A stretch of DNA of 64,000 bases from Lotus japonicus (lineage: Eukaryota; Streptophyta; Magnoliopsida; Fabales; Fabaceae), in the NCBI RefSeq assembly GCF_012489685.1, contig NC_080044.1, positions 22,610,369 to 22,674,368 on the forward strand, in the 5' to 3' direction. Shown here one piece after another: positions 2,510-43,656 of the stretch. Every line of letters begins with the position of its first letter. Position 1 is the first letter of the stretch. Made by a program: the position numbers and the translations under genes. A model generated the notes under the pieces. That model was given only the letters and a program-made list of their open reading frames with translations, did no database searches and was not told the DNA's origin.

Positions 2510-2670
2510 CTACATGCTAGCGTGATCGTCGTCCGAATCTGAATCCAGAACGACCAAGTCTATGTACACCTTCCGTCCTCCTCTTGCTACCGCGATGCGC
2601 TCTTGTTCCGGCATCTCGAACCTAGTCCCCCCGAAGGGTGAACCATCGTGATTCAGTCCGCCATGGACAT
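2510..2670 (-). pseudogene. Degenerate copy of the LTR-encoded ORF (copy A)
   Basis: The start ATG (2670) is followed after five codons by a TGA at the Trp codon. A base is missing from the G run and the middle of the ORF is deleted. The C-terminal core VDLVVLD is still recognisable as IDLVVLD followed by DSDSDDD, and the stop is kept. It marks the ORF as an ancestral part of the LTR that was lost in this copy. Confidence 0.6.
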
Positions 2671-3608: not shown

Positions 3609-4091
3609 CTACACGCTAGCACGGTCGTCATCCGAATCTGCATCCAGGACGACTAGGTCGACGTACTCAACACTGCCCTCTCTGTCCACCCTAATGCGCT
3701 CCTGCACTGGACTCTCGGGCTCGGGGCCCGGAACGAGATCCGCGACGACAGCAGCAGCAGTAGACGGACTAGACTCCGTCGAAGCCCCACCTACTGGCAC
3801 CTCCTCAGAGGGGTCCTCATCATCTGAAGGGGATGGTGGCGGTGGAGGTACTCCCAAGCCGGGTCCACAGTGTACTCCTGGAGGCAGGTTGAAGCTCACT
3901 ATGTGCCTCCTCATCACTCCCTCCGTCAAGCGTCCAAATCGGTCGACACGGTCCTCCATAATCCGACCGGTGTAGGTCGCACGGTGGCCCTCGGGATCGA
4001 CCACCCATGCACCTGGGTCGTCTTGATCAAGCATCTCGTACCTGGTCCCCCCCGACGGGCTGACCATGGTAAACCAATCCCCCATACTCAT
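3609..4091 (-). CDS. LTR-encoded ORF, 160 aa, unknown function
   Basis: I do not recognise this protein. It lies inside the LTR in the same orientation as the element's gag-pol, about 3.2 kb from the LTR 5' end. The N-terminal half (residues 4-75) is the conserved block, with DWFTMV, GGTRYEM, DQDDPGAWVVDP, HRATY, GRIM and VSFNLPPGVHCGPG. A Pro/Ser/Asp/Glu-rich middle follows. The C-terminus is YVDLVVLDADSDDD plus four residues, a hydrophobic core with an acidic tail like a SUMO-interacting motif (inference). I chose the ATG at 4091 because codons upstream of it differ from copy 39461-39937 only non-synonymously, whereas downstream differences are mostly synonymous. TGTCAG immediately precedes the ATG and could be a splice acceptor. 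Whether it is translated is unknown. Confidence 0.6.
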   Translation of the reverse strand: MSMGDWFTMVSPSGGTRYEMLDQDDPGAWVVDPEGHRATYTGRIMEDRVDRFGRLTEGVMRRHIVSFNLPPGVHCGPGLGVPPPPPSPSDDEDPSEEVPVGGASTESSPSTAAAVVADLVPGPEPESPVQERIRVDREGSVEYVDLVVLDADSDDDRASV

Positions 4092-4806
4092 CTGACAAAT
4101 GGCGTAGTCCGCCCAAACACACACAGCAGACGCGAGGGTCAACTCCAAAGAATTATATAATTAATAAAACCAGATATAATTATAGGATAATAAATACTCG
4201 CCTCTCAGGCTTATAAGTTTTGGGATAGCTTCCTAGGGTTGCATGTATCACAATGAATATAAAGAGCCATAAAAACAAGTAGCATGCCTCAAAAATAGGA
4301 TAAACAGTTACCAATCACACTCAGCAACTAAGTCAGCATGTATGTTGCATGAAATGCAATGCTGGGTAACAAAATGCATTCCGGAAGAAGGATGGACATC
4401 AACGAGGCGGCCCTAACACCAGCCACGGTGGGTACCTTCCTGCTCGCGTGTCTCTTACACCACACAAAAGTAGTCAGATCAGCAGTGAACCCGTAGGTCT
4501 GCCATTCCGTCTGCTACTGAGGACCACCGTAGTGTCCTAAATATGGAAATCCGGGTCTTATGACCATTTTGGAATCCACCGAGGTCCGGTATCACGCCGT
4601 GTATTAACCTCAAAATGAGTGCATGAATGCAAGTGATTAGCCAAACAACGTCTCCGACCTCACCCGACACGTCGCCACGTGTTCTAGATAACTTAAAGTC
4701 TCTAAAAGAATACCCTAAGGTAAATGTCGATTCTGCGACAAAATACAATTAATCATAAACAAAAGAGTGCAACCACTCACGACAACTCTTCGAGTCATCA
4801 ATGCTC

Positions 4807-5055
4807 TCACGAAGTCTCTCGCTTCTGTGGAGTCTCACACATTCACAAAGTCTCACGCTTCAGTGAAGTTTTATGCTTTCACAAGGTCTCACGCCTCAGT
4901 GAATTTACACACTTGCACGAAGTCTCACGCTTCAATGAAGTTTCATGCTGTTCACGAGGTCTCACGCCTCAGTGAAGATCCATGCTTTCCACAAGGTCTC
5001 ACGCCTCAGTGGAGTATCACGCATTCACAAGGTCTCACACCTCCGTGAAGCTTCT
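4807..5055. repeat. About 37-bp minisatellite in LTR copy B
   Basis: About seven imperfect copies of a roughly 37-bp unit with the core AAGGTCTCACGCCTCAGTGA. Short plus-strand ORFs over it are repeat translations, not genes. Copy A has fewer units and the full Tekay-like element lacks the array at this position. Confidence 0.85.
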
Positions 5056-7524
5056 CGGCTCATCCCTTGGATGGCTAAACAAACTGCTCCCAGAGCGAAT
5101 GAGTATCAACATACCCAGAACTCGAAATCTTCTCAACACTTGGATCCGACGACACTTCTCGTTTTCCAAAACTAAACTTCAATCCAAAGCTTGCATCCGA
5201 GATTGTTATCTTTATTTAAAGGTTTAGAGGTTGTTTAATATCTTATGAATTTTCTTTATAAAAATAGCTCTTTTTTAGTCTTATCGTATTCCCTATGAGT
5301 TTCAAAGTTCCCATAAACCCAAGTAATTCCCTGAGAAGGTCTCGATCCATTGGAGCATGACAAGGTCCGAACTCCGTTCGTCCTTTTAAAACTCTCTCAA
5401 AATCTCATAAAAATTCGGCATGACCTGCCCGTAAACCTCACTCTTCAGAATCTCAGGTACAAGTGGAATGGCATAAATAAAACAGCTTAGTCAAAAGCAT
5501 AAACAGCATATTCCAACACATCCTAAGTTAACCATGTAGCACATAGCATGTGAATCATTTAGCACACAATATCATGGCATCAATTACTCAACAAGGTCGG
5601 CCGAAGCCTCAGAGAACAATTCAGACATTTAGCAATTAAGTGCATAACACATAAATCAAGTCGAACTTGTCGACACCTAAAGCATTATCTAGTAATTCAG
5701 AGAGTAGCCCTCACCGGTGGGTCTTCCAGCTTCTTCCTCAAGATGTTCTCCAAACTCTTCTCCTTGATTTCTTGGAATCTCCTCAAACGAACCTTAAGCA
5801 AAAATCACAGAATTCAACACCAAGAGTCAGAAACTCAGCAATCAAAGAGTCCTAGGGTTACACAGTACACTACTACCTCCTTGGTACGACAATCTAACGC
5901 GTTAAGACAAGTTTTCGAAAAATCGGATTCTCCTCCCCCCTTGATATAGCTCTCGGCCACTTTCCTTAATTGGGAGGGTCGATTTTTCTTCGATCAAACT
6001 TGGTTCCTAGGTTAACATAAGCCGTAACTAAGACGGTTCTAGGCTCGGAAAAATTTACGGATCGAAAACTGATATAGGGGTAGTTTGGTCATTATTTTTA
6101 GCTCAGAATTTCAAAATTGGATTTTTGAAAAACAAATTGGATGGGGACGTCCACAACGACGTTTATGACGACAAATCCTACTAGCACTAAGCCAAGTCGA
6201 TAGATTAGAGCGTAAAGGTTGCGACTTTGCCGAAAAATGGGTATTTAGGGTGGAAATTGATCCCGGCGGCATTTCGTCGACATTTGACAAAATCTAATCC
6301 GCAGAACACGCTCAGGAGCATGCAGGGAAGAAGTTTAGACGCTGAAATCAGCTGATTTGAACAGTTTTTCAAAAACCTCAAAATTTTGAACTCAGAAAGT
6401 CGCAGGAGAAATGGACAGAAACGACGATTCGAAGGAGAGTATAGATTACCTACCTCGGGGTCTTCGATTAGTGACGATCGGTGAAGCAAACGGGAAAGAA
6501 ACGACGAAGATCCGGATCTCTCTCTCTCTCTAGGAACTCGCGGTTTTGGGGGTGGGGAAAATGGGTTTTTTTGCAAAAAATCTAATTTTCAAGCTATTTA
6601 TAGGTTTTGGAAAAAACGGAAAAATGATTTTTTTGCGATTCCGATTTTTCCTGCGCGTTCCTCTGCGCATTCTAAGATAGGTTCTGGCGACAGAATTCCA
6701 GAACTCAAAACAGGATTCTTGGAATTAAACCAAAAGATCCAAAATCGGCATAAGTCGGTGTAAGTCGGTTTATCCCGAAAAACTACTTTTGCAGTGATCG
6801 TCGGATGAGAAAACTTCCTTCTGAAGAAAGATTAGGAATGATGAGAGAAGTAGGAGAACGCGGGTGGAATCTTCATTTGAGTTTCCGGATAGAAAAAGTC
6901 TTCATCGTCTGTCGATCTTAGGTTTTTCGAACTATCAGGGATTCCGTTTCGGCAAACTTCCGAGAATTGGAATTTGACGTTCGTACTTTCCAGGATTTCG
7001 CATCGAAATGGTTGTTTAAGGACGGAAAAGAGAAGTTCTAACATTTCTCTGAGAATTTTTGGAATTAGTTTCCATCGTGTCCTAAAGCGTAAATTAACTA
7101 TTCACTAATACCTTCGACCTAGGATTAAGCGTATGTTAGTTGTGCTATAACTCTTTCGGTTTTTCGATACATTCTTGGACTTTTCCTGAACCTCTTTCCT
7201 TCCCAAATTTATCTTAATCAAATAACTCTTTTATTTTATTCACTTATCCAAAGCGTTAAAACTTGGGCCTTACACCGGGTCTTATGACCATTTTGGAATC
7301 CACCGAGGTCCGAAGTCTGTCTCGTGTTAAGACCTCAAAATGAGTGCATGAATGCAAAGTGACTAGCCAAACAACGTCTCCGACCTCACTCGACACGTCG
7401 CCACGTGTTCTAACTAACTTATTTGTCTCTAAAAAGAATACCCTAAGGTAAAAGTCGATTCTGCGACAAAATACAATTAATCGTAAAATGAGTGCAAACA
7501 CTCACGATAACTCTTCGAGTCATC

Positions 7525-7715
7525 AATGCTCTCACAAAGTCTCACGCTTCAGTGGAGGCTTATACAATCACAAAGTCTCACGCTCCAGTGAAGTTTCATG
7601 CTGTTCACGAGGTCTCACGCCTCAGTGAAGATCCATGCTTTTCACAAGGTCTCACGCCTCAGTGAAGTATCACGCATTCACAAGGTCTCACGCCTCAGTG
7701 AAGCTTCTCGGCTCA
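7525..7715. repeat. About 37-bp minisatellite in LTR copy A
   Basis: Five or so copies of the same unit as at 4807-5055, at the equivalent LTR position, so the array has changed in copy number between LTRs of one family. Confidence 0.8.
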
Positions 7716-9328
7716 TCCGTTGGATGGCTAAACAAACTGCTCAAAGAGCGAAGGAGTATCAACATACTCAGAAACCTACAATTCTCCCATAACTTGGATT
7801 CGACGACAATCCTCCTTTTCCAAAACTAATATCTCAGTCCTAAGCTTGCATCCGAGATTGTTATCATTATTTAAAGGTTTAGAGGTTGTTTAGTATCTTA
7901 TGAATTTTCCTTGTAAAAAAATAGTTTCCATTTAATCTTATCGTAATTCCTATGAGTTTCAAAGATCCCATAATCCCATTGTAATCCCTAGAGAATGTCT
8001 CGATCCACTTAAAACACTAACAAGGCCCGAACTCCATTCGTCCCGTCAAACTTTCTCAAACTCTTATAAAAATCGGCATGACATGCCCGTTATCCTCACT
8101 TTGAAGCATAACAGATATATGTGTAATAGCATAGTTAAATCAGCACAGTCAATAAGCATGTCACATATATCAACACATCCTAGAATAACCACATAGCACT
8201 TAGCATGTAAAGCAGATATCACACATTCTAGATTAACCACTTAACACGTAGCATGTGATTCAAACTCCAAAAACAATTAATAGATGACTAATCATCATTG
8301 TCAGCCGAAGCCTCAGAAAACATTTTTCCCAGTCAAACACAAACAAGTGCATAAACAATAAATCAAGTCGAATTCGTCGACACCTAAAGCATTAACTAAT
8401 AGTTCAGTGAGTAGCCCTCACCTGTAGATTCTCCAGGGTTCTCTCCAAACGCTCCTTCACAATCAGCTCCTTGTTCTTCGGGAAATTCCTCAAAAGAACC
8501 TTTAGAGTAAAAACCACAGAATTCCATCAAAATCTATCAGAAACTCGGCAATCAACACTCACTAAGGTTACACGAAGTAGCATATACTCCGAGGTACGAT
8601 AATCTAGCGCGAAAGGACAAGTTTTCGAAAAAGAATTTTCTTCCTCCTCCAAGGGTGCTCACGGCCACACATGGTAATTGTGTGTGTCGATTTTTCTTCG
8701 ATCAAACTTGGTTCCTAGGTTATCATTAGTCGTAACTAAGGTTAATCTAAACTCGGAAAAATTATCGGATCGAAAACTGTCGCAGGGGTATTTTGGTCAT
8801 TATTTTCAGCTCAGAATTTCAAAATCAGAGTTTCGAAAAACAAATTAGATGGGGTTGATACTAACGATGATTATGACGACTAATCTTACTAACGCTAAGC
8901 TCAGTCAAGGGTTTTAAGCCCAAAGGTTGGAACTTTAGCCAAAAATGGGTATTATGAGCAGAATTGAAACTTGGCGGCATTTCGGCGAGAATCGGCGAAA
9001 TGTAATCCGCTAAACATGCTCAAGGGCACGCAAGGAATAAGTTTAGATAAAAATATGAAGTTATCTAGATAGTTTTGCAAAAACCTCAAAACTAAGAGCA
9101 CAGAAAAGTATAGAGAAAAGCTACAGAATTTACGATCAGAAGTAAGGAAAAACGTCAGTACCTTGAGGCCTACGCGTAGCAACGAACTGTGGGACGATCA
9201 GACAAGAATCGGCGAAAAGCTCTCCTCCTCCTTCTTCTCTCCAAGCCGCGGGTTGTGTGTGTGTTTGTGAGGTTTTTGTTTTCTTTTCATTCTTCAAGCT
9301 TCACATATTCATAGGGAATGAAATGGAA

Positions 9329-9450
9329 GATATTTATCAAAGATCGGATAAGGATGAATAGATATTTATCAAAGATCGGATAAGGATGAATAGATATTTA
9401 TAAAAGATCGGATAAGGATGAATAGATATTTATCAAAGATATTTTGAGAG
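9329..9450. repeat. 32-bp tandem repeat in LTR copy A
   Basis: Units start at 9329, 9361, 9393 and 9425 with core GATATTTATCAAAGATCGGA. The last is partial and runs into three shorter GATATTTTGTAAA units. I did not see this array in the other LTR copies. Confidence 0.85.
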
Positions 9451-10227
9451 GATATTTTGTAAAGATATTTTGTAAAGATATTTTGTAAACCGGTACAGAT
9501 TAGTTTAGACATCGGAGGATTTAACTCATAGAGTTAAGATAAAAATATAAGAGCGATCCTGATTTCTTCCTACTGATTCCAACGCATTTTAGACACGATA
9601 TTCTCCCCGCTAAATATTCTAATTCTTCAAAGAAATATCAGCATGATTTTTGGTTTTCGAGGCTTGTTTTTAATGTTTACCGACTTAAAATGCACTTTAT
9701 GGTTTTGATCTCGGATGCAGAAACTTCCTTCTGAAGAAAGATTTGGAACGTCGATTAGAGTGAGCGTACGCGAATGAAATCTTTATATGAAGCTCCGAAT
9801 AGAAAAAGTCTTCATCAACCGTTCATTCTAGGTTTCTTGAACTATCAGGGTTTTAGTTTCGGCAAACTTCCGAGGATTGGAATCGGACGTTCGTAGATCC
9901 TAGGTTTTCGCCTCGAAACGATTGTCGTATAAGGAATAAGAGAAGTTCTAACATTTCTCTGAAGATTTTTGGAATTAACTTCCATCGTGACTTTAAGTGT
10001 AAACTAGCTATTTGCTAGGGTTTCTGCCCTAGGTTTAAGCGTATATCGATCGTGCTATAACTTTTATCGGCTTTGATACGATCCTTAGCCTTTTCCTGAA
10101 CTTCCTCCTTCATAAATATATTCCATTCGATGAACTCTTGTTCAGGTTTTCCTTCACGATACATCAAACCTAATCGTAAATGGAAATCTCTTCCACTTAA
10201 TCTAAGCTTAAAAACTTGGGTCTTACA

Positions 10228-12396: not shown

Positions 12397-15300
12397 TGTA
12401 ACACCCCGATTTCGGTGGAGTCACTTTAGTAACCAAAAATAAACTTAATGTGGAAAAACGTGAATATTTTTTTTTCGTCGATAATATAAACAAGACTGAA
12501 ATAAATAAAACGCAAATGCGAAAGACAACAGAACTAATATACAATATATATTACAGCCCCCGCTGTAAGTAGCAACCTCGTCACGAGTAACCTCCAGTGA
12601 TGGAAAGCAGAAAAGTGTAACGCCCGTAGGCAATATGTACAGACCAAAGTAAAGGTGAAGTGTCCGCAACACAAACCTCAAAAACGAGAATAAGTTAGCC
12701 CAATCGGCCTGGAACAAGACCTCCTAAGTCCAACCAACTCTCTGTGATTCCCGTAAAGAAACCACACAAAAAGCTATAGGTGGGAAACTACCATGTCCCC
12801 AAAGAAACAAATAATGGTCAGAGCTAAGACTCTACTCCTACACTAATCCTATCTCGAGGAGCTCACACCAGCACTAAAACCTACATGCTAGCATGATCGT
12901 CGTCTGAATCTGAATCCAGAACGACCAAGTCTACGTACACTACCCGTCCTCCTCTCGCAACCGCAATGCGCTCCGGTGCTGGCCTCTCGGGCTTAGGGCC
13001 CGAACCATGATCATCAATGATAGCAACGGTGGGTGTGCTGGACTCTGAAGAATGCACTCCCACAGGCTCCTCCTCTGAGGGGTCCTCATCATCCGAAGAC
13101 GACGGTGGTGGTGGCGCTCCTACTCCTGGCCCACAATGCACGCCGGGCGGCAGTTGAAGCTGGCAGTGCTCCTCCTCAGCACTCCATCCATCAAGTGTCC
13201 TACTCTGTCTACCCGATCCTCCATGATCCTCCCCGAGTACGTCGCACGATGGTTAGCGGGGTCGACCACCCACGCGCCGGGGTCATCCTGATCTATCATC
13301 TCATATCTAGTCCCCCCCGAAGGGTGGACCATCGTGAACCAATCCGCTAAAGACATCTGACAATAGGCGTAGTCCGCCAAAACACACACAGAAGACGCGA
13401 GGGTCAACTCTAAAGAATTATGTAAATAATACCACCAATAGATACAGATAAGAGATTAGCCACTTAGGCTTATAGCTAGAGATAGCATCCTAGGGTTGCA
13501 TATTCCACAATGACTATAAACGACAGTAATAACAAATAGCATGCATCAAATAGGAATAACAATTATCAATCACACTCAGCAACTAAGTCAGTATGCATGC
13601 TGCATGAGATGCAAATGACGGTTAACCCAGTTAACCAAATGCATTCCGGAAAGGATGGACATCAACAGATCAGCCCTAGCACCAGCCACGGTGGGACCAT
13701 TTCGGCCCGCGTGCCTCTTATACCAACAACAACGGTAGTCAGATCAGCATAAAACCCGAAGGCCTGCCATTTCGGTCTGCTACTAAGAGTCGCCTAATAG
13801 CGCTCTTACGCGGAAATCCGAGTCTTATGACCATTTTGGAATCCACCGAGGTTCGAAGTCCGTCTCGTGTTAATACCTCATTAATGGTGCATGAATGCGA
13901 AATGATTAGCCAAACAACGTCTCCGACCTCACTCGACACGTCGCCACGTGTTCTAGCTAAATTAATGTCTCTAAAAGCTTACCCTAAGGTAAAGTCGATT
14001 CTGCGACAAAAGACTTCTTTACAACAACATAATAACTCATGATGATCTCCAAATCATCCGACTCATCTCCATCCGATGGTCAAAACTGCTCAACGAGCAA
14101 AGAGTATCAACATACTCGGAAACTACCCGTTTCCCGACTTATCTCTCGGATAGCCCAAACAACACAACTGCTCCCAGAGCACAAGAGTATCAACATACCC
14201 AAAACTTCTTAATATTCTCAACACTTGGATCCGACGACACTTCTCGCTTTCCCAAAACTAATATTTGAATCCTAAGCTTCCTTTCGAAATTGTTATCATT
14301 ATTTGAAGATTTAGAGGTTGTTTAATGTCTTATGAGTTTTCCTTACAAAATAATTTCCTTTTAGTCTTATCGCAAATCTTATGAGTTTTCAGCATCCCGT
14401 AATCCCAATTAACTCTCCGAGAATGTCTCGATCCACTAAAACCATAACAAGGCCCGAATCTCATTCGTCCTATCAAACTTTCCCCAAAGTCTCAAAATAA
14501 AATCGGCATGACCTGCCCGCTATTCACACTCCTCAGTACCACAGATATGAGTGAAAGCATAGTTAAATCAGTACAGTCAACAAACATGCCATATATCAAG
14601 ACATTCTAGAATAATCACGTAGCACTTAGCATATAAAGCATGCATCACACATCCTAGATTACCCACTTAGCACGTACCATGTAATTCAATCTCAAAAACA
14701 GTCAGTAGATGAATCATCTACATTGTCAGCCGAAGCCTCAGAAAACATTTTTCCAGTCAAACACAAACAAGTGCATAAACAGTAAATCAAGTCGAAAGCA
14801 TCGACACTTAAGCATTAACTAAGGATTCAGTGAGTAGCCCTCACCTGTAGATTCTCCAGGATTGTCCTCGAAAGTTCCTTCACAATGAGCTCCTTGATCT
14901 TCAGGAAATTCTTCAAAAGAACCTTTAGAGTAAAACCACAGAATTCCATCAAAAACTATCAAAAACTCAGTAATCAATACTCACTAAGGTTACACGAAGT
15001 AGTATATACTCCGAGGTACGATAATCTAGCGCGAAAGGACAAGTTTTTGAAACAAGAATTTTCTTCCTCCCCCCTTAGGGTGCTCGGCCACTATAAAAGT
15101 CGGTGTAAAACTATTTTACCCGATAAGTTACTTTTTGCATCGAATGTCGGAAGAGAAAACTTCCTTCTGAAGAAAGATTGAAATCATTAAGAGAAATGGG
15201 TGTACGCGTGTGGAATCTTCATCTGAAGTTCCGAATAGAAAAAGTCTTCATCGTCGGTCGATTCTAGGGTTTTTGAACTATCAGGGTTCTAGTTTCGGCA

Positions 15301-15662
15301 AACTTCCGAGGATTGGAATCGGACGTTCGTAGATTCTAGGGTTTCGCCTCGAAACGATTGTCGTATAAGGAATAAGAGAAGCTCTAACATTTCTCTGAAG
15401 ATTTTTGGAATTAATTCCATCGTGACTTTAAGTGAAAACTAGCTATTTACTAGGGTTTCTGCCTTAGGTTTAAGCGTATATCGATCGTGCTATACCTTTT
15501 ATCGATTTTGATACAATCCTTAGACTTTTCCTGAACTTTCTCCTTCATAAATTTATTTCATTTAGTAAACTCCTGTTCAGGTTTCCCTTCACGATACATC
15601 AACCCTAATCGCGAATAAGAATTTTATTCACTTGGCATAAGTTTAAAAACTTGGGTCTTACA
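12397..15662 (-). repeat. 3' LTR of the Tekay-like element, internally deleted (3266 bp)
   Basis: It matches the 5' LTR except for a missing block of about 778 bp. The junction at 15093-15096 joins sequence equivalent to 23027 and about 23807 in the partner. The polypurine side is GGAGGGTAGTAA on the minus strand at 15663-15674. Confidence 0.9.
12881..13356 (-). pseudogene. Frameshifted LTR ORF in the 3' LTR
   Basis: From the ATG at 13356 the conserved block is intact through VSFN-equivalent residues, then a missing base near 13154 shifts the frame. The downstream half is open and ends VDLVVLDSDSDDDHASM. The same missing base is in the 5' LTR, so it pre-dates this insertion. Confidence 0.65.
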
Positions 15663-15699
15663 TTACTACCCTCCAAAAAGAAAGTTTCGACCTCGAAAC

Positions 15700-18600
15700 T
15701 TAAGGGTCAGTAAAAAGTTCTGGATACTGTTCTTGGATCTTCTCCTTCAGCTCCCATGTCGCATCACCGGTGTCTTTATTCCAAATGACTTTCACTAACT
15801 CGATCTCTTTTCCTCTCAACTGCTTTACCCTGGTGTCACCACTGCTAATTGGCGGTGTCTCGAAAGACAGATCATCCTTCAGCTTAATGTCATCCAGTTT
15901 GATAACATGTGTTGGATCCGCAATATATTTCCTCAGTTGTGACACGTGGAATACGTCATGAATGTTCGATAGAAATGGAGGTAGTGCAATCTGATAAGCG
16001 ACTGGTCCTATTCGACGAGTGATCTGATAAGGTCCAATAAACTTCGGCGTAAGCTTCTTTGACTTGATTGCTCGACCAACACCCGTAGTCTGAGTAACTC
16101 TCAGAAATACATGGTCTCCTTCTTCGAATTCCAGAGTTCTGCGCCTTTGATCTGCATAACTCTTCTGTCTACTCTGAGAAGTCTTCATTTTCTCTCTGAT
16201 CTGCTTGATCTTCTCGGTTGTCTGTTGCAGAAGTTCTGGTCCTACTAACAGATTCTCTCCATTTTGATACCAACACAAAGGTGTTCTACACTTGCGGCCA
16301 TACAAAGCCTCATACGGTGCCATACCTATGTTGGTATGAAAACTGTTGTTGTATGTGAACTCAATCAATGGCAATAGGTTATCCCAACTGCCCTTGTTGT
16401 CTAACAGGCAAGCTCGTAGCAAATCCTCCAATGATTGGATAGTTCTCTCAGTCTGTCCATCAGTCTGTGGATGATAAGCAGAACTTAGTCTCAGCCTCGT
16501 TACCAACGCCTTATGAAGAGTTCCCCAGAAATGTGAAGTAAATTTTGGATCTCGATCGGAAACAATACTGGTCGGTACTCCATGAAGTCGTACAATCTCA
16601 GCTATATATATCTCTGATAGTTTCTCCACGTTGTACGTAGTCCTCATAGGTACGAAATGAGCCGACTTAGTCAATCGATCCACTATTACCCAAATAGAAT
16701 CATATCCCTTTTGAGTTCTTGGCAAAGCCACGACGAAATCCATTGATATGCTATCCCATTTCCATTCTGGTACATCTAAGCTTTGTAGCATACCTGAAGA
16801 TTTCTGATGTTCCACCTTTGCTTTCTGACATGTCAAACATGCAGCTACATACTCAGCCACTTGTCTTTTCATTCCTGGCCACCAAAAATTTACCTTCAAG
16901 TCCTGATACATCTTTTTCATTCCAGGATGAATGCTCAACTTGCTCTTGTGACCTTCATCCATAATCAACCTCCTCAAGTCAGGGTTGTTAGGTACGCAAA
17001 CCCTATCCTTACACCGTAGGATATTGTCACTTCCTGCCTTGAATTCCGGGTCTTTACCTTGACTTACCAAGTTCCTTTTTCCGAGCAGAAACTCATCTTG
17101 TAACTGTTGGTCTCAGATTTCTTCCATCAATCCATTGGTAATTCTGATCATTCCGAACTTCAGTTCTCCCTCGGACAATCTCACATCCAAGCTCAAATCT
17201 TTAAATTGTTCCAGTAGTTGAAGTTCCTTAATCATCATTGACGAGATATGCATCTTCCTGCTCAAGGCATCAACAACAACATTCGCCTTTCCAGGATGAT
17301 ATTGTAGAGTAAACTCATAATCTTTGAGAAATTCCATCCACCGACGTTGTCTCATGTTCAGCTCCTTCTGCTCAAACAAGTACTTCAAGCTCTTATGATC
17401 ACTGAATATGGTGAAATTGCATCCATATAGGTGATGTCTCCAAATCTTCAGTGCAAATACGATGGCAGCTAGCTCTAAGTCATGAGTTGGATAATTCTTC
17501 TCATGAACCTTCAGTTGTCTTGAAGCATAAGCAACTACCTTCCGATCTTGCATCAGCACACATCCCAAACCTTGATGCGAAGCGTCACAATACACTTCAT
17601 AAGGTTCCTCTGGCTGCGGTAAGACGAGTACAGGTGACGTCGTCAAACGTTCCTTCATCGTCTGAAAACTAGTTTCGCACGCTTCGGTCCATGCAAAAGG
17701 TTGATCCTTCCTCGTAAGTTGAGTCAACGGTCCAACAATCTTGGCGAAATTTTCGATGAAGCGGCGATAGTAACCCGCCAAACCAACGAAACTCCTAATC
17801 TCAATCACTGTTCTCGGCCGTTCCCATGACAATACGGTCTCTACCTTTGCTGGGTCCACAGCTATCCCCTCCTTAGAGATCACATGGCCTAAGAATTTTA
17901 CCTCTTCGAGCCAAAATTCGCACTTAGAAGGATTGGCGTACAACTCCTTCTCCCTCAGCACCTGTAAAACTTGTCGCAAGTGCCCCTCATGATCCTCAGC
18001 ATTCTTTGAGTAGATCAGAATATCGTCGATAAACACCACGACGAACCGATCTAGGAATGTATGGAAGGTCTTGTTCATGTAATCCATGAATATGGCAAGT
18101 GCGTTCGTCACCCCAAATGGCATCACTAAGTACTCATAGTGTCCATAACGGGTTCTGAATGCTGTCTTCTGGATATCCTCAGTCTTGACTCTGATTTGAT
18201 GATATCCCGACTTCAGATCGATCTTTGAGAATATCGCAGCTCCTCGAAGTTGATCCATCAAATCATCAATTCTAGGTAACGAATACCTATTCTTGACGGT
18301 TACCTTGTTAAGTTGTCGGTAGTCGACACATAATCTAGATTTCCCGTCCTTCTTCTTCACCAATAAGACTGGCGCTCCCCAAGGTGAAACACTTGGTTAG
18401 ATAAATCCCTTCGACAAAAGATCTTCTAGTTGGGACTTCAATTCCACTAGCTCCGCAGGTGCCATACGATATGGTGCAATCGAAATCGGCCCCGTTCCCG
18501 GTACGATGTCAATAGCAAACTCAATGTCGCGTACAGGCGGCAATCCAGGTACATCGCCAGGAAAAACATCCCCGAAGTCTCTCACCACTGAAATATTATC

Positions 18601-20118
18601 AACTTCCGGATTCTCTTTACTCTCCAAGCTTAGAAAAACGGAATACTCTTGAGATCCCTCGTTCCAAGAGACGCTAATGTGATTGGCAGATAGATACTCG
18701 GAAAGATCCGAATCAGGAAATACCACTCTCTTTCGGTTGCAGTCCAAAAGACAATGATAGTGGGACAACCAATCCATTCCTAGGATAACATCTAGGTTCT
18801 TAAGAGTTAGGCATACTAGGTTAACATGGTAGACTCTATTGTTATATGTTATCGGACAGTACATACATGTCGTATTAGCAAGTAGAGTCTTGGCTGGAGT
18901 GGTAACTATAAGATCGAAGCTCAAAGCAGTAATAGGAAGTCTTAATCTGGTCGCACATTCTCTAGAGATAAATGAATGCGTTGCACCGGAATCGAAAAGT
19001 ACAGTTAGGAGATTACCGTCAATCTCGCAGTCTCCCCTAATCAGCCCATCGACCCCTTCAGCATCTTCACCATCCATGGTGTAGACTCTCGCCTTTGCAG
19101 CAGGACGCTTTCCCCGAGCAGTGTTGACGGTTGGTTCCGTCTTGGGTACCCTGCACTGAGCAGCAGTATGCCCCAATTTGTTACAGTTGAAGCATTGAGG
19201 TCTCGTGTCGGGACAAGCACGAGCATAGTGTCCCGGCTTCCCACACTTGAAGCAGGTCATCTCCCTGTTCTGAGTCTGCTCTCTAGAACCACCGGCAGCA
19301 CCCACCATGGGTCTGTAAGATCCTGAAGTAAATCCTCTACCAGCAGGACGTTGATACGGCCTCCTGTTCTGAAATTTCCCTCTGCTCTGAAAATTTTGAG
19401 AGCCCGACCTCATCGGCCCTCCAGTTCCGGTACGGTTCAACCTCCGGTTCTTCATCAGCTCCACTTCCGTGGCTTTCTCAACCAAAGACTGGAAACGCAT
19501 GATTCCCAGCGGCCTCACTGAGTCCTCAATATCAGGCCTCAATCCATTAACAAAGCGCTTGCACATGTAGCGCTCATCAACATGATCATTAAAGAATTGA
19601 AAATGCTTCGCCAAAGACTCCAGCTTGGAAGCAAATTCTGGTACAGACATACCTCCTTGACGGAGTGTCAGAAACTGTGCCTACCGCTCATCCCGAGCAC
19701 TTGTTGGAAAATACTTCTCCAAGAATGCAGTCCGAAAGGAGTTCCAGTTGATCTCCTCCTGATTAGCTTCCATAATCCCCCTGGTGCCCTTCCACCACTA
19801 CTCAGCATCACCGAGCAGTAGATAAGTCGCCATGCCTACTTTGGCACCCTCAACAGTCTGCAAAACACCGAAAATCTTCTCGATTTCCTGGATCCAGAGA
19901 TCCGCCTTATCCGGGTCAGTACCACCCGAGAACTTTGGTGGGTTTTGCCTCCTGAAGTCATTCAGGCTTTTGTTCTGGTCCAGAGTTACTTCCCTCTGGC
20001 GTTGATGCTGATCACGTGCCTCCTCAGCAGCACGCCTCATAGCATTATCGTTCGCTTGCGCTGTCACAGCTTGGGCCATTGTGGCCATCATCTCGGCTAA
20101 CTGGTTAGTGTTCACCAT
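15700..20118 (-). pseudogene. Tekay-like gag-pol polyprotein with four in-frame stops
   Basis: One frame of about 1473 codons runs from the ATG at 20118 to 15700, broken by stops at 19798-19800, 19681-19683, 18397-18399 and 17113-17115. Order of domains: gag, two zinc knuckles (CFKCGKPGHYARAC, CFNCNKLGHTAAQC), aspartic protease (LFDSGATHSF), reverse transcriptase ([17 protein letters not shown]), RNase H ([10 protein letters not shown]), integrase zinc finger (HHCC near 17000-16830), integrase core with Asp-Asp-Glu (SMDFVV, SDRDPKF, TDGQTER), GPY/F-like motif and a chromodomain-like tail (VKVIWN to ATWELKE). RT has Leu where NAPA motifs have Pro. Catalytic residues are kept, and the frame is not shifted, so decay is by point mutation only. 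The shared frame shows this was one polyprotein. Confidence 0.9.
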
Positions 20119-20314
20119 GTTCTGTTAAGTGAAACAAACAGTTAGTACTTATCATAAGATAGCATCTAGCATAACTATACAATATGATTAAGCAATAACT
20201 TCAATCAATTCTAAGCGAAAAATCGCTTGCAGACAATCAATTTTCACTCTTTGCAGAGTCACACAACCTAGCACAGAAGACCTATTCCCCAAAGACTCCC
20301 GAAAGACTCGACAA

Positions 20315-20326
20315 GCTCTGATACCA
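20315..20326 (-). other. Primer-binding site, initiator tRNA-Met
   Basis: On the minus strand this reads TGGTATCAGAGC, complementary to the 3' end of plant initiator tRNA-Met, three bases inside the 5' LTR. Confidence 0.92.
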
Positions 20327-20329
20327 CAA

Positions 20330-23300
20330 TGTAACACCCCGATTTCGGTGGCGTCACTTTAGTAACCAAAAATAAACTTAATGCGGAAAAACGTGAATAT
20401 TTTTTTTTCGTCGATAATATAAACAAGACTGAAATAAATAAAACGCAAATGCGAAAGACAACAGAACTAATATACAATATATATCACAGCCCCCGCTGTA
20501 AGTAGCAACCTCGTCACGAGTAACCTCCAGTGACGGAAAGTAGAAAAGTGTAACGCCCGTAGGCAATATGTACAGACCAAAGTAAAGGTGAAGTGTCCGC
20601 AACACAAACCTCAAAAACAAGAATAAGTTAGCCCAATCGGCCTGGAACAAGACCTCCTAAGTCCAACCAACTCTCTGTGATTCCCGTAAAGAAACCACAC
20701 AAAAAGCTATAGGTGGGAAACTACCCTGTCCCCAAAGAAACAAATAATGGTCAGAGCTAAGACTCTACTCCTACACTAATCCTATCTCGAGGAGCTCACA
20801 CCAGCACTAAAACCTACATGCTAGCATGATCGTCGTCTGAATCTGAATCCAGAACGACCAAGTCTACGTACACTACCCGTCCTCCTCTCGCAACCGCAAT
20901 GCGCTCCGGTGCTGGCCTCTCGGGCTTAGGGCCCGAACCATGATCATCAATGATAGCAACGGTGGGTGTGCTGGACTCTGAAGAATGCACTCCCACAGGG
21001 TCCTCCTCTGAGGGGTCCTCATCATCCGAAGACGACGGTGGTGGTGGCGCTCCTACTCCTGGCCCAAAATGCACGCCAGGCGGCAGTTGAAGCTGGCAGT
21101 GCTCCTCCTCAGCACTCCTTCCATCAAGTGTCCTACTCTGTCTACCCGATCCTCCATGATCCTCCCCGAGTACGTCGCACGATGGTTAGCGGGGTCGACC
21201 ACCCACGCGCCGGGGTCATCCTGATCTACAATCTCATATCTAGTCCCCCCGAAGGGTGGACCATCGTGAACTAATCCGCTAAAGACATCTGACAATAGGC
21301 GTAGTCCGCCAAAACAAACACAGAAGACGCGTGGGTCAACTCCAAAGAATTATGTAAATAATATCACCAATAGATACACATAAGAGATTAGCCACTTAGG
21401 CTTATAGCTAGAGATAGCATCCTAGGGTTGCATATTCCACAAAGACTATAAACGACAGTAATAACAAATAGCATGCATCAAATAGGATTAAAAATTATCA
21501 ATCACACTCAGCAACATAGTCAGTATGCATGCTGCATGAAATGCAAATGACGGTTAACCCAGTTAACCAAATGCATTCCGGAAAGGATGGACATCAACGG
21601 ATCAGCCCTAGCACCAGCCACGGTGGGACCATTTCGGCCCGCGTGCCTCTTATACCAACAACAACGGTAGTCAGATCAGCATAAAACCCGAAGGCCTGCC
21701 ATTTCGGTCTGCTACTAAGAGTCGCCTAATAGCGCTCTTACGCGGAAATCCGGGTCTTATGACCATTTTGGAATCCACCGAGGTCCGAAGTCCGTCTCGT
21801 GTTAATACCTCATTAATGGTGCATGAATGCGAAATGATTAGCCAAACAACGTCTCCGACCTCACTCGACACGTTGCCACGTGTTCTAGCTAAATTAATGT
21901 CTCTAAAAGCTTACCCTAAGGTAAAGTCGATTCTGCGACAAAAGACACTTCTTTACAACAACATAATAACTCATGATGATCTCCAAATCATCCGACTCAT
22001 CTCCATCCGATGGTCAAAACTGCTCAACGAGCAAAGAGTATCAACATACTCGGAAACTACCCGTTTCCCGACTTATCTGTCGGATAGCCCAAACAACACA
22101 ACTGCTCCCAGAGCACAAGAGTATCAACATACCCAAAACTTCTTAATATTCTCAACACTTGGATCCGACGACACTTCTCGCTTTCCCAAAACTAAGATTT
22201 GAATCCTAAGCTTCCTTTCGAGTTTGTTATCATTATTTGAAGATTTAGAGGTTGTTTAATGCCTTATGAGTTTTCCTTACAAAATAATTTCCTTTTAGTC
22301 TTATCGCAAATCTTATGAGTTTTCAACATCTCGTAATCCCAATTAACTCCCCGAGAATGTCTCGATCCACTAAAACCATAACAAGGCCCGAATCTCATTC
22401 GTCCTATCAAACTTTCCCCAAAGTCTCAAAATAAAATCAGCATGACCTGCCCGCTATTCTCACTCCTCAGTACCACAGATATGAGTGAAAGCATAGTTAA
22501 ATCAGTACAGTCAACAAACATGTCATATATCAAGACATTCTAGAATAATCACGTAGCACTTAGCATATAAAGCATGCATCACACATCCTAGATTACCCAC
22601 TTAGCACGTACCATGTAATTCAATCTCAAAAACAGTCAGTAGATGAATCATCTACATTGTCAGCCGAAGCCTCAGAAAACATTTTTCCAGTCAAACACAA
22701 ACAAGTGCATAAACAGTAAATCAAGTCGAAAGCATCGACACTTAAGCATTAACTAAGGATTCATTGAGTAGCCCTCACCTGTAGATTCTTCAGGATTGTC
22801 CTCGAAAGTTCCTTCACAATGAGCTCCTTGATCTTCAGGAAATTCTTCAAAAGAACCTTTAGAGTAAAACCACAGAATTCCATCAAAAACTATCAGAAAC
22901 TCAGTAATCAATACCCACTAAGGTTACACGAAGTAGTATATACTCCAAGGTACGATAATCTAGCGCGAAAGGACAAGTTTTTGAAACAAGAATTTTCTTC
23001 CTCCCCCCTTAGGGTGCTCGGCCACTATTGGTAATTAGGTGGGTCGATTTTTCTTCGATCAAACTTGGTTCCTAGGTTATTATTAGTCGTAACTAAGGGT
23101 ATTCTAAACTCGGAAAAATTATCGGATCGAAAACTGTCGCAGGGGTAATTTGGTCAATATTTTTAGCTCAGAATTTCAAAACTGAAATTTCAAAAAGCAA
23201 ATTGGATGGGGACGTCACCAACGACGTTTATGACAACTAATCCTACTAGCACTAAGCTAAGGCGATAGTTTTCAGCCCAAAGGACGAAGCTTTGCCCCAA

Positions 23301-24373
23301 AATGGGTATTTTAAGCAGAATTGAAACTCGACGGTAGTTTTTCGAGAATCGGCGCAGTATTATTAGCTAAACATGCTCTTGGGCACGTAGGGAAGATGTT
23401 TAGATAGAAAAATGAAGTTATCAGGATAGTTTTGCAAAAACCTCAAAACTATGAGCACAGAAAGACATAGAGAAAAGCTATGGAAAAGACGATCAGAGGT
23501 AAGGATTAGCGACTATACCTCGATACCTTCAAGCAGCAACTGTTGAATCAACGATCAAGCAAGAAATGAAGAAAATCTCTTCTCTTCCTCCTCTTGGTGA
23601 AACTCGCGGGTTTGGAGAGAAAATGGTGAAGTTTTTGCCATTTTTTCTCATTTTCTTGCTATATATAGAGGTTGGAAAAACGCGGGAAAATGAAAGTTTC
23701 GCGATTCCGATTTTTCCGGCTTCATTCTATGTGAATTCTAAGATAGGTTTTGGCGACATAAATCCAAAACTCAAAAGAGGTTTCCTTGTATTTTAGGTGA
23801 CTAATGCGAAGTTGGTGTAAAACTATTTTACCCGATAAGTTACTTTTTGAATCGAATGTCGGAAGAGAAAACTTCCTTCTGAAGAAAGATTGAAATCGTC
23901 AAGAGAAATGGGTGTACGCGTGTGGAATCTTCATCTGAAGTTCCGAATAGAAAAAGTCTTCATCGTCGGTCGATTCTAGGGTTTTTGAACTATCAGGGTT
24001 CTAGTTTCGGCAAACTTCCGAGGATTGGAATCGGACGTTCGTAGATTCTAGGGTTCGCCTCGAAACGATTGTCGTATAAGGAATAAGAGAAGTTCTAACG
24101 TTTCTCTGAAGATTTTTGGAATTAATTCCATCGTGACTTTAAGTGAAAATTAGCTATTTACCAGGGTTTCTGCCTTAGGTTTAAGCGTATATCGATCGTG
24201 CTATACCTTTTATCGATTTTGATACAATCCTTAGACTTTTCCTGAACTTTCTCCTTCATAAATTTATTTCATTTAGTAAACTCTTGTTCAGGTTTCCCTT
24301 CACGATATATCAACCCTAATCGCGAATAAGAATTTTATTCACTTGGCATAAGTTTAAAAACTTGGGTCTTACA
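20330..24373 (-). repeat. 5' LTR of the Tekay-like element (4044 bp)
   Basis: In element orientation it runs from 24373 to 20330 and borders the primer-binding site. It is the full-length form; its partner lacks about 778 bp. Confidence 0.92.
20814..21288 (-). pseudogene. Broken LTR ORF in the 5' LTR
   Basis: The ATG is at 21288. The Trp codon of the conserved DWF motif is TAG. A C-run length change and a 1-base loss near 21087 break the frame again. The C-terminal half stays open and ends VDLVVLDSDSDDDHASM. Confidence 0.6.
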
Positions 24374-38968: not shown

Positions 38969-41900
38969 TGTAACACCCCGATTTCGGTGGCGTCACTTTA
39001 GTAACCAAAAATAAACTTAATGAGGAAAAACGTGAATATTTTTTTTTTCGTCTATAATATAAACAAGACTGAAATAATTAAACACAAATGCGAAAGACAA
39101 CTGAACTAATATACAATATATATTACAGCCCCCCCCCCCCCCGCTGTAAGTAGCAACCTCGTCACGAGTAACCTCCAGTGACGGAAAGAAGAAAAGTGTA
39201 ACGCCCGTAGGCAATATGTACAGACCAACGTAAAGGTGAAGTGTCCGCAACACAAACCTCAAAAATGAGAATAAGCTGGCCCATCGGCCTAAGACAAGAC
39301 CTCCTAAGTCCAACCAACTCTCTGTGATTCCCGTAAAGAAACCACACAAAAAGCTATAGGCGGGAAACTACCCTGTCTCCAAAGAAACAAATGATGTTCA
39401 GAGCTAAGACTCTACTCCTACACTAATCCAATCTCGAGGAGCTCACACCAGCACTAAAACCTACATGCTAGCATGATCGTCGTCTGAATCTGAATCCAGA
39501 ACGACCAAGTCTACAAACACTATCCGTCCTCCCCTCGCAACCGCTATGCGCTCCGGTGCTGGACTCACGGGCTTTGGGCCCGAACCATGATCATCAATGA
39601 TAGCAACGGTGGGTGTGCTGGACTCTGATGAATGCACTCCCACAGGCTCCTCCTCGGAGGGGTCCTCATCATCCGAAGACGACGGTGGCGGTGGTGCTCC
39701 CACTCCTGGTCCGCAATGCACTCCTGGCGGCAAGTTGAAACTGACAGTGCTCCTCCTCAGCACTCCTTCCATCAAGTGTCCTACCCTATCTACCCTATCA
39801 TCCATGATCCTCCCCGAGTACGTCGCGCGATGGCTAGCGGGGTCTACCACCCACGCGCCGGGGTCATCCTGGTCTATCATCTCGTATCTAGTCCCCCCCG
39901 AAGGGTGGACCATTGTGAACCAGTCCGCTAAAGACATCTTACAAAGGGCGCTGTCCGCCAAAACACACACAGAAGACGCGAGGGTCAACTCCAAAGAATT
40001 ATGTAAATAATAAACCCAATAGGTACAGATAAGAGATAGCCACTTAGGCTTATAGCTAGAGATAGCATCCTAGGGTTGCATATTCCACAATGAATATAAC
40101 GACAATAATAACAATTAACATATTCCAAATAGGATTAACAAGTAACAATCACACTCAGAAACTAAATTAGTATGCATGTTGCATGATGTGCAAATGACGG
40201 TTAACCCAGTTAACCAAATGCATTCCGGAAGGGATGGACATCAACGGATCAGCCCTAACACCGGCCACGGTGGGACCATTTCGGCCCGCGTGCCTCTTAC
40301 ACCAACAACAACGGTAGTCAGATCAGCAGTAAACCCGAAGTTCTGCCATTTCGGTCTGCTACTAAGAGTCGTCTATAAACGCTCTTACGCGGAAATCCGG
40401 GTCTTATGACCATTTTGGAATCCACCGAGGTCCGAAGTCCGTCTCGTGTTAATACCTCATTAATGGTGCATGAATGCGAAATGATTAGCCAAACAACGTC
40501 TCCGACCTCACTCGACACGTCGCCACGTGTTCTAGGTAAAATTAAAGTCTCTAAAAGCTTACCCTTAGGTAAAGTCGATTCTACGACAAAAGACACTTCT
40601 TCACAACAACACATAATTCATGATGATCTCCAAATCATCCGACTCATCTCCATCCGATTGTCACAACTGCTCAACGAGCAAAGAGTATCACATACTCGGA
40701 AACTACCTGTTTCCTTGACTTATCCCCCGGATAGCCCAACAACACAACTGCTCCCAGAGCACAAGAGTATCAACATACTCAAAACTTCTCAATACCTCAA
40801 CACTTGGATCCGACGACACTTCTCGTTTTCCAAAAACTAAGATTTGACTCCTAAGCTTTCGTTCGAGATTATTATCATTATTAAAAGGTTTAAAGGTTGT
40901 TTAATGTCTTATGAGTTTTCCTTACAAAATAGTTTCCACTTTTGTCTTATCGCAAATCTTATAAGTTCTCGGGATCTCCTAATCCCAAATGACTCCAGAG
41001 AATGTCTCGATCCATGAAAACCATAACAAGGCCCGAATCTCATTCGTCCTATCAAACTTTCCCCAAAATCTCAAAATAAAATCGGCATGACCTGCCCGCT
41101 ATCCTCACTACTCAGAATCACAAATATCATTGAAAAGGCATAATTAAATCAGCACAATCAACCAACATGTCATACATCAACATATTCTAAAACAACCACG
41201 TAGCACTTAGCATATAAAGCATGCATCACACATCCTAGATTACCCACTTAGCACGTAACATGTAATTCAATCTCAAAAACATTCAGTAGATGAATCATCT
41301 ACATTGTCAGCCGAAGCCTCAGAAAACATTTTTCCAATCAAACACAAACAAGTGCGGAAACAGTAAATCAAGTCGAAGTATCGACACCTAAGCATTAACT
41401 AAGGATTCAGTGAGTAGCCCTCACCTGAAGATTCTCCAGGGTTCCCGTCTAGTGTTCCTTCACAATCAATGCCTTGCTCTTCAGGAAATTCCTCAAAAGC
41501 ACCTTTAGAGCAAAACCACAGAAATCAATCACAATGAGTCAGAAACTCAGCAAACAATACTCACTAAGGTTACGCGAAGTAGTATATACTCCGAGATACG
41601 ATAATCTAGCGCGAAAGGACAAGTTTTCGAAAAAGGAATTTTCCCCCTCCCCCCTTAGGGTGCTCAGCCACTCTTGGTAATTGGGTGGTTCGATTTTTCT
41701 TCGATCAAACTTGGTTCCTAGGTTATTATTAGTCGTAACTAAGGGTATTCTAAACTCGGAAAAATTATCGGATCGAAAACTGTCGCAGGGGTATTTTGGT
41801 CAATATTTTAGCTCAGAATTTCAAAATTGAAATTTCGAAAAGCAAATTGGATGGGGACGTCACCAACGACGTTTATGACAACTAATCCTACTAGCACTAA

Positions 41901-42987
41901 TCTAAGACGATAGTTTTCAGCCCAAAGGACGAAGCTTTGTCCCAAAATGGGTATTTTAAGCAGAATTGAATCTCGACGGTAGTTTTTCGAGAATCGGCGC
42001 AGTATTATTAGCTAAACATACTCAGGAGAACTTAGGGAAGATGTTTAGAATCAAAAATGAAGTTATCAGGATAGTTTTGCAAAAACCTCAAAACTATGAG
42101 CACAGAAAGACATAGAGAAAAGCTATGGAAAAAGCGATCAGAGGTAAGGATTAGCGACTATACCTCGAAACCTTCAAGCAGCAACTGTTGGATCAACGAT
42201 CAAGCAAGAAATGAAGAAAATCTCTTCCTCCTTCCTCTTGGTGAAGCTCGCGGGTTTTGGAGAGAAAATGGGTAAGATTTTTGTGATTTTTTGGGTTTGG
42301 AAAAACGCGGGAAAATGAAAGTTTCGCGATTCCGATTTTTCCGGCTTCATTCTCCGTGAATTCTAAGATAGGTTTTGGCGATATAAATCCAAAACTCAAA
42401 AGAGGTTTCCTTGTATTTTAAGTGACTAATGCAAAGTCGGTGTAAAACTATTTTACCCGATAAGTTACTTTTTGCATTGAATGTCGGAATAGAAAACTTC
42501 CTTCTGGAGAAAGATTGAAATCATCAAGAGAAATGGGTGTACGCGTGTAGAATCTTTATTTGAAGCTCCGAATAGAAAAAGTCTTCATTATCGGTTGATT
42601 CTAGGGTTTTGAACTATCAGGGTTTTAGTTTCGGCAAACTTCCGATGATTGGAATCGGACGTTCGTAGATTCTAGAGTTTCGCCTTGAAACGATTGTCGT
42701 ATAAGGAATAAGAGAAGTTCTAACATTTCTCTGAAGATTTTTGGAATAAATTCCTACAGTGTTCCAAGGGTGGAACTTAGTCTTTTCCTAAGGTTCTTGT
42801 CCTAGGTTTAAGCGAATCGATCGTGCTATACCTTTTATCGATTCTGGTACAATCCTTAGACTTTTCCTGAACTTTCTCCTTCATAAATTTATTTCATTTG
42901 GTAAAATCTTGTTCAGGTTTCCCTTCACGATACATCAACCCTAATCGTGAATAAGAACTTTATTCCCTAAGCATAAGCTTAAAAACT
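38969..42987 (-). mobile_element. Solo Tekay-like LTR (copy C)
   Basis: TGTAACACCCCG to GGGTCTTACA, 4019 bp, flanked by GATCC at 38964-38968 and 42988-42992. It keeps the LTR ORF open. A run of about 14 C lies near 39128. Confidence 0.93.
39461..39937 (-). CDS. LTR-encoded ORF, 158 aa, unknown function
   Basis: The second open copy of the unrecognised LTR protein. It has the same plan as the copy at 3609-4091: MSLADWFTMV at the start, GGTRYEM, DQDDPGAWVVDP, HRATYSGRIM, VSFNLPPGVHCGPG, a Pro/Ser/Glu-rich middle, and a C-terminus FVDLVVLDSDSDDDHASM. I aligned about 100 codons of the two copies by hand and saw about 40 synonymous against about 18 non-synonymous codon differences, while 19 codons upstream of the ATG showed 5 non-synonymous and none synonymous. 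That supports both coding and the start at 39937. It lies in the element's sense orientation. The VDLVVLD plus acidic tail could bind SUMO (inference). No promoter of its own is clear. Confidence 0.62.
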   Translation of the reverse strand: MSLADWFTMVHPSGGTRYEMIDQDDPGAWVVDPASHRATYSGRIMDDRVDRVGHLMEGVLRRSTVSFNLPPGVHCGPGVGAPPPPSSSDDEDPSEEEPVGVHSSESSTPTVAIIDDHGSGPKPVSPAPERIAVARGGRIVFVDLVVLDSDSDDDHASM

Positions 42988-42992
42988 TGGGT

Positions 42993-43656
42993 CTTACAGA
43001 TCCCAACACGACCTTGATGTCTGGGGATCGCTCCGGGAAAGTTCGACGCGAACCTCTGCTACTCAGATAGCAATTCAACTGACATGTCACCTTCGCCCGG
43101 TGGGAAAAATTCCCTGAAGGTGGCAATCCCAACACGACCTTTTTGTCCGGGGATTAATCCGGAAAGTCCGGCACGAATCGCTGACCTCTCGTTGGCGATG
43201 TGTGCGGATAGGCTCCTTGTCCAAGGGCAGGCAGTCTATCCCAAAAAGTCTCCCCAAAATATGGGCAAACTAGACCTCCCCGAAATATGGGCGAGAAAAA
43301 AACTAGGCATAAGTCTGGGTAAACCTATATGGCCATTGGGTCCCTAGCAATCGTAAGCCCTCGCCGGGATAAAACCGGTGAGGCCGCACCTGCTCTTACG
43401 AGAAATATTGGTGCATGGAGAAAGCCTCAGCCCCAGGCTGAGCTAAAGTCCTAGTTTCGATAGCACACGTTCAAAATCGCTACACGAGCACAAAATGCAA
43501 AGCCCGAAGGGCACGAGGGCGCGAACGAGGAAAGAAATAAACAAACGAAATTGTAGCAAATATTCACTAAATAACGTCGAGCGATATATTAATCACAAAG
43601 AAAAAAAAAGGGGTAAGAGAAAAATCAGTACAAAATATTCACATTATATTAACATC
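42993..43656 (+). other. Gag-only element 3' region with tandem repeat units
   Basis: Units with core GGTGGGAAAA..TTCCC..GAAGGTGG followed by CCCAACACGACC start near 38934 (split by copy C) and at about 43096. Such repeats are typical of the variable 3' region of Tat/Ogre elements. A C/G-rich non-coding spacer leads to the antisense ORF. Confidence 0.6.

Follow-up and report, generated by a model that had tools for sequence, protein, structure and literature searches.

A reading frame under purifying selection in the long terminal repeats of a Lotus japonicus Ty3/gypsy family, and a predicted spliced gene around it

Comparison of the copies of a long terminal repeat (LTR) family in Lotus japonicus shows a frame of about 158 to 160 codons near the 3' end of the LTR to be under strong purifying selection. 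The predicted protein belongs to a family that is present in several Lotus sequence groups and, as profile comparisons indicate, probably in Trifolium as well. From these data we consider it probable that the long LTR is itself a protein gene, spliced within the LTR; its product may be a small nuclear regulator.

The analysis covered a window of 64,000 nucleotides of contig NC_080044.1, in which the LTRs, about 4 kb long, lie in minus orientation; complete copies measure 4.03-4.15 kb. Three solo LTRs (A, B and C) and a whole element bounded by LTRs D and E were delimited (Table 1). An earlier sequence-only reading of this DNA had called B and C solo LTRs, in agreement with their 5-bp target duplications CCGGG and GATCC. 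The LTR termini are of the TG...CA type, running from TGTAAGACCC (in B: TGTAAGGCCC) to GGGTGTTACA. The internal region of the element begins with TGGTATCAGAGC, which we take to be the initiator-tRNA-Met primer site, and Pfam recognizes a zinc knuckle, protease, reverse transcriptase (RT), RNase H, integrase and a Tf2-1-type SH3 domain. Both the TG...CA ends with target duplication and the domain order between two LTRs are those of a Ty3/gypsy element, while the element's gag, read by eye, contains in-frame stops. The sequence-only reading had spoken of a plant chromovirus; the Ty3/gypsy domain set was recovered by Pfam, but no chromodomain was found in the C-terminal 106 residues of the integrase by Pfam (E up to 10) or in the element by a PDB sequence search. 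Plant group II chromodomains are divergent. The element is a probable, not a proven, chromovirus; the class considered was the Tekay/Del type of plants.

Table 1. Features of the LTR family in the window (window coordinates)
Feature	Position	Strand	Remarks
Solo LTR A	2027..10227	-	split by inserted LTR B; target duplication AGGAT
Solo LTR B	3125..7274	-	4150 nt; inside LTR A; target duplication CCGGG
Solo LTR C	38969..42998	-	4030 nt; has lost the TATA region; target duplication GATCC
Whole element, LTRs D and E	12397..24373	-	flanks TAACG/CAACG, 4/5 match
LTR D (3' LTR of element)	12397-15662	-	lacks about 0.8 kb, among it the TATA region
LTR E (5' LTR of element)	20330-24373	-	
Internal region	15663..20329	-	begins TGGTATCAGAGC; CCHC knuckle, protease, RT, RNase H, integrase, SH3
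PF00098, PF08284	18397-19650		element internal region; Pfam
PF00078, PF17917	17113-18363		element internal region; Pfam
PF17921, rve (under its cut-off), PF24626	15700-17070		element internal region; Pfam
LTR ORF, copy A	2513..2670	-	remnant: large internal deletion, early stop; acceptor AG changed to TG
LTR ORF, copy B	3609..4091	-	160 aa, intact
LTR ORF, copy C	39461..39937	-	158 aa, intact; LTR positions 3062-3538 of 4030
LTR ORF, copy D (3' LTR)	12884..13356	-	broken; 1-nt deletion common to E
LTR ORF, copy E (5' LTR)	20817..21288	-	broken; 1-nt deletion common to D, stop, another 1-nt deletion
Predicted 78-nt exon, LTR A	8422..8499	-	
Predicted 78-nt exon, LTR B	5715..5792	-	donor CCG/GTGAGG
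Predicted 78-nt leader exon, LTR C	41425..41502	-	acceptor CTCTAAAG, donor CAG/GTGAGG; length and ends agree with P0003, P0008
Predicted 78-nt exon, LTR D	14845..14922	-	
Predicted 78-nt exon, LTR E	22779..22856	-	
Predicted 1.49-kb intron, LTR C	39938..41424	-	acceptor adjoins ATG
TATA box, LTR B	6597..6602	-	LTR position 673
TATA box, LTR E	23662..23667	-	LTR position 707
TACTAAC (branch-point-like) and TTAACAG (acceptor-like)	20122..20147	-	putative, by eye; right before gag ATG (20118)

Other features of the window were recorded in passing. A young Ty1/copia element, presumably SIRE-like, lies at 46509-58645 (target duplication GGCTC; LTRs 46509-47719 and 57439-58645, 99.2% identical) and carries an extra 1023-aa ORF downstream of pol (49132-52203) with a weak match to Transposase_32. 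A 131-aa frame on the minus strand (28361-28756) matches the plant self-incompatibility protein S1 (PF05938, E 2.7e-26). There are also a tandem duplication of 279 bp (32374-32931, 97% identical) and, at 63132-63992, two direct repeats of about 400 bp which are 94% identical and start about 460 bp apart.

All five copies of the ORF in the window are located in LTRs, and in copy C the frame stops 492 nt short of the LTR 3' end. As the sequence-only reading had it, the frame is open over 160 codons in B and 158 in C, both on the minus strand, and broken in A, D and E. That reading had also named random frames as the comparison for openness. When dinucleotide shuffles were read on the same strand, the ORF length was reached in 3/1000 for LTR C, 9/1000 for the C ORF ±300 nt and 2/1000 for the B ORF ±300 nt; when LTR C was shuffled and all six frames were read, 158 codons were reached in 8/300. 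The length by itself is only moderately unusual.

Over codons 1-78, B and C show 40.5 synonymous and 20.5 nonsynonymous differences, close to the roughly 40 and 18 counted previously by the sequence-only reading in about 100 codons. Over the whole ORF, where 157 codons could be compared, synonymous differences number 73.5 and nonsynonymous ones 53.5, which gives an NG86 ratio of 0.108 and a GY94 omega of 0.098 (dN 0.166, dS 1.54), with a likelihood ratio test (LRT) statistic of 81.5 against omega = 1. The C/D comparison is similar (omega 0.114, LRT 31). Differences between B and C fall 29, 25 and 74 times on codon positions 1, 2 and 3 (159 each), and the sense frames +1 and +2 over the same stretch have omegas of 1.44 and 1.96. 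Moreover, the previously reported switch at the ATG is real: the 19 codons before it, for which a ratio of 0 to 5 had been given, contain 0 synonymous and 6 nonsynonymous differences in B/C, and 1 and 5 in C/D. No flanking frame has an omega significantly below 1 (upstream 0.46-1.27, downstream 0.70-1.47; largest LRT 3.4).

The uncorrected pN/pS of the ORF (B/C 0.228, B/E 0.248, C/E 0.151) was also set against windows of 157 codons starting every 15 nt in all six frames, each having at least 100 comparable codons and no ORF overlap, though overlapping each other. For each of the three pairs, 0/1050 windows were as low as the ORF, and the window medians were 0.84-0.85. A coding frame that lies within the LTR and is selected as protein, as in LTR-encoded retroviral accessory genes of the MMTV (mouse mammary tumour virus) sag type, was found. 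D and E are the two LTRs of one insertion and must have been identical when it integrated; they differ by 1 synonymous and 5 nonsynonymous changes. Selection thus operates from one generation of elements to the next, with no sign of it once a copy has inserted. Taken together, the comparisons support a protein-coding, element-borne frame under purifying selection between element lineages.

Divergence of noncoding LTR sequence was lower than that of 4-fold degenerate ORF sites in B/C (0.263 vs 0.544, 57 sites) and in C/E (0.076 vs 0.15, 80 sites), where the 95% interval of the difference barely excludes 0; in C/D this interval includes 0, and in D/E, after insertion, the values are 0.018 vs 0.012. 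Either much of the LTR is constrained or it is homogenised by recombination. LTRs B, C and E (about 4 kb) contain conserved noncoding blocks, for example C 41690-41728.

The database search proposed with the sequence-only reading did return a protein family. A first protein search yielded 8 relatives among 279 candidates, the closest named ones being from Lotus japonicus, and a profile search 18 among 7990 scored, 17 of them clear (E 5.7e-86 to 9.4e-15). Eight of the 17 are annotated Lotus LOC models (P0003, P0004, P0006, P0008, P0009, P0011, P0012 and P0013), while P0015 is I3SYR4, a GenBank 'unknown' of the type that presumably comes from cDNA clones. The eighteenth match, P0020, has an E value of 5.1 and the same layout as the Lotus proteins; its N-terminal HMM match of 14.1 bits was reached by 0/20000 shuffles. 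With P0020 as query, 11 proteins were retrieved, P0020 among them; 7 carry the name Trifolium repens, and clusters have up to 14 members in that species and 18 in a JGI source. Profile-profile comparison of the Lotus and Trifolium groups gave P 8.5e-5 and a probability of 60% over 31 columns, suggesting that the Lotus and T. repens families are probably homologous.

In the family members, about 75 residues at the N terminus form a conserved block; a linker rich in proline and acidic residues comes next, and then a C-terminal hydrophobic strand followed by Asp/Ser. W29, D32, Y40, G42, G58, F67, V73 and G76 are near-invariant in an alignment of 19 sequences, from which 11 of 30 proteins had been excluded as fragments, near-duplicates or frameshifted. 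Pfam gave no family at cut-off in the seven members scanned, and neither P0001 nor P0002 had a Pfam match with an E of 0.1 or less; likewise, no NCBIfam family matched in three members scanned. A C-terminal cysteine motif, SESSCLVCGEHPC.C, is common to P0020-P0027, P0029 and P0030 (with Y for one C in P0025) and absent from P0028 and from the Lotus branch. Five short relatives (P0010, P0014, P0015, P0016 and P0017) keep the N-terminal block and have altered C termini, with an alternative ending common to P0016 and P0017, which suggests a truncated subfamily or alternative splicing.

At the sequence level, the LTR also contains a candidate 78-nt exon, an acceptor-like AG at the ATG and a TATA box. 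Some 1.5 kb upstream of the ORF is a single place in the LTR to which the N-terminal extensions of P0003, P0008 and P0006 map; their best E values are 2.8e-7 (P0003, to LTR B), 0.010 (P0008) and 0.15 (P0006), the last two being weak alone. At this place, the distance from an acceptor-like ..AAG/GT to a donor-like /GTGAGG is exactly 78 nt in all five window copies, and the exon-2 part likewise amounts to 78 nt in P0003 (26 codons) and in P0008 (2+75+1 nt, in another frame). Scored against the donor consensus, CAG/GTGAGG is the sole site with at least 8/9 matches in LTRs C and E; LTR B, which has CCG/GTGAGG, contains no site at that level. The predicted intron ends in TTGTCAG in B, D and E and in TTTGTAAG in C, adjoining the ATG, and the acceptor AG directly precedes the ATG in four copies, copy A having TG. 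The likely reason why constraint starts so abruptly at the ATG is therefore that the preceding sequence would be intron.

The TATA box, about 0.7 kb into the LTR, is kept in two of the five copies, degraded in A and deleted in C and D, so that solo LTR C, though its frame is intact, may be without a promoter. All four copies retaining the region after the TATA box show, by eye, a candidate first donor, GAG/GTA or AAG/GTA. The exon-2 extension occurs in only 3/8 Lotus LOC models; P0004 reads through the acceptor, and four others begin at the ATG and are uninformative. Splice-like sites and two to three of the eight gene models would fit a spliced mRNA, but the models may be ab initio.

In the explanation that we propose, transcription would start inside the LTR, and splicing to the LTR acceptor would give the mRNA of the small protein. 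For gag-pol and packaging, the element would use RNA that is left unspliced or is joined to the putative acceptor before gag; alternative splicing would then set the LTR-protein mRNA against the gag mRNA, with unspliced RNA being packaged. The ORF would thus occupy the 5' leader (R/U5), ahead of gag. As no part of the gene would lie outside the LTR, any LTR with promoter and frame preserved, whether 5', 3' or solo, could be a source of the protein in trans. The frameshift common to D and E indicates that the RNA template of this insertion already had a broken ORF: the protein is not needed in cis, and can be supplied in trans or dispensed with.

What the protein does is the weakest step: it may be a nuclear protein whose target is the RNA or the chromatin of the element itself. 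Our first choice, held tentatively and by analogy, is that it lets the intron-bearing genomic RNA leave the nucleus, like Rev and the CERV protein of Cer1. Elements with an export regulator would be expected to have such a layout, in which the leader contains introns, a small protein is made early and some of the RNA has to remain unspliced. What probability is not given to export or to the anti-silencing role discussed next goes to other functions.

The same LTR gene could instead encode a protein that counters host silencing at the level of chromatin or small RNA, a possibility we regard as somewhat unlikely. Its C-terminal strand and Asp/Ser run would then dock SUMO or another partner in a silencing complex; to us, an acid-flanked hydrophobic strand near a C terminus recalls SUMO-interacting motifs. 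The motif takes forms such as LVVLDSDSDDD, MITVDSDSDSD and LILISSDSD in the Lotus and Trifolium groups, and a regular expression for it matches 21/24 proteins tested, 20 of them at the C-terminal place, while expression from solo LTRs would suit a factor acting in trans. However, for each protein 7.5-29% of its shuffles also fit the expression, so that the motif is not significant against shuffles, and the proteins are not independent; the expression fails in P0002, P0003 and P0021 and matches only elsewhere in P0019. Furthermore, AlphaFold2 folds the strand into a hairpin of the protein itself, with modest confidence (mean pLDDT about 60). P0002 and P0011 are 51% identical, and their models agree in the order of elements: a short helix comes first, then four strands (about 16-20, 29-32, 37-49 and 55-68), and after a linker of low confidence the chain closes with two more strands at the C terminus. 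A structure library search with these models gave no significant match.

Placement of the ORF in the leader, as we prefer, depends on where the genomic RNA starts. Each of the three LTRs scanned has a TATA-like stretch some 150 nt ahead of its 3' end (C 39122, E 20483, B 3282), the upstream TATA box being present in two of the same three. Were the genome to start there, the ORF would fall in U3 and its protein would come from an LTR transcript of its own, similar to the superantigen of MMTV. We judge this unlikely: Lotus models join the ORF to exon 2, some 1.5 kb upstream of it, and an RNA of that kind at least must begin further upstream. The element could also use both starts.

A captured or domesticated host gene, carried along as LTR cargo, is a very improbable source of the frame. 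The eight annotated Lotus loci and the 'hypothetical proteins' of Trifolium do resemble gene families, but the window copies are without exception in LTRs, the purifying selection acts between element lineages and not after insertion, and the large clusters (up to 14 or 18) lacking a Pfam or NCBIfam domain suggest element genes. Least credible of all is a chance open frame or RNA-level constraint with no protein gene, which the shuffles reaching the ORF length and the low ratio of the antisense wobble-sharing frame (0.23 in B/C with 4 stop-bearing codons, 0.11 in C/D with 3) might favour, but which we reject as far as sequence allows in view of the excess of third-position differences, an omega of 0.10, the 0/1050 windows and 17 protein-level relatives, probably extending to another genus.

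Returning to the LTR as a spliced protein gene, a wider picture can be drawn, again with reserve. Each new LTR may be a self-contained, intron-bearing gene, complete with promoter, leader exons and coding exon, for an undescribed regulator; undecayed solo LTRs would then form a genome-wide supply in trans, exploited by the few intact members, in a system that would be old in legumes, reaching from Lotus to Trifolium. To our knowledge, LTRs are normally thought to hold only control signals. As plant LTRs are treated as regulatory DNA and masked in annotation, a conserved protein encoded in them would be easy to miss, and our results suggest that LTRs account for some of the Lotus loci annotated as 'uncharacterized protein'. 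If confirmed, plant Ty3/gypsy elements would gain an accessory regulator with a role like that of the regulators known from retroviruses and Cer1, there would be a reason for the unusually long LTRs, and solo LTRs could still influence the family after the element body was lost.

Among known systems, the superantigen of MMTV, an animal retrovirus, is coded in the U3 of the LTR. The likeness, which is one of description, is that a protein is coded inside the LTR and hence twice per provirus; the difference, apart from the host, is that the Lotus ORF is read as R/U5. In the LTR retrotransposon Cer1 of Caenorhabditis elegans, CERV is made from a spliced mRNA and, according to the available text, is required for export of the genomic RNA (PMC10309623); this function is reported from experiments, whereas for the Lotus protein it is proposed here, and the two are likened by description, not sequence. 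In the sources covered, extra ORFs of plant Ty3/gypsy elements have been placed in the internal region. Retrosat2, RIRE3 and RIRE8 of grasses, with LTRs of about 3 kb or more, carry ORF0 upstream of gag-pol (PMC3485330), a resemblance, again by description, to the extra ORF ahead of gag-pol in a long-LTR plant Ty3/gypsy element; ORF0, however, lies between the 5' LTR and gag-pol (PMC4093653) and was found only in grasses, while the Lotus ORF is inside the LTR. In 15 Ty3/gypsy families of common bean, ORF2 (211-939 aa) is located between pol and the 3' LTR, antisense to pol (PMC4093653, available text); as far as descriptions go, it is likewise an extra ORF of a legume Ty3/gypsy element, differing in its internal, antisense place. 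EVADE and Ogre share the splicing of plant LTR-element RNA, but their introns serve subgenomic RNAs or polyprotein expression, and no separate LTR-encoded protein made from them is described in the available portions of the sources (PMC12786077; PMC6317226). Within its available portion, a survey of lineages discusses extra ORFs and places none in an LTR (PMC6317226). The sequence-only reading knew of no description of such a protein, and none encoded by a plant LTR was found in the literature covered, a set of sources excluding most subscription papers. Element-encoded accessory proteins are already known as such; what would be new is one coded within a plant LTR, with introns of its own.
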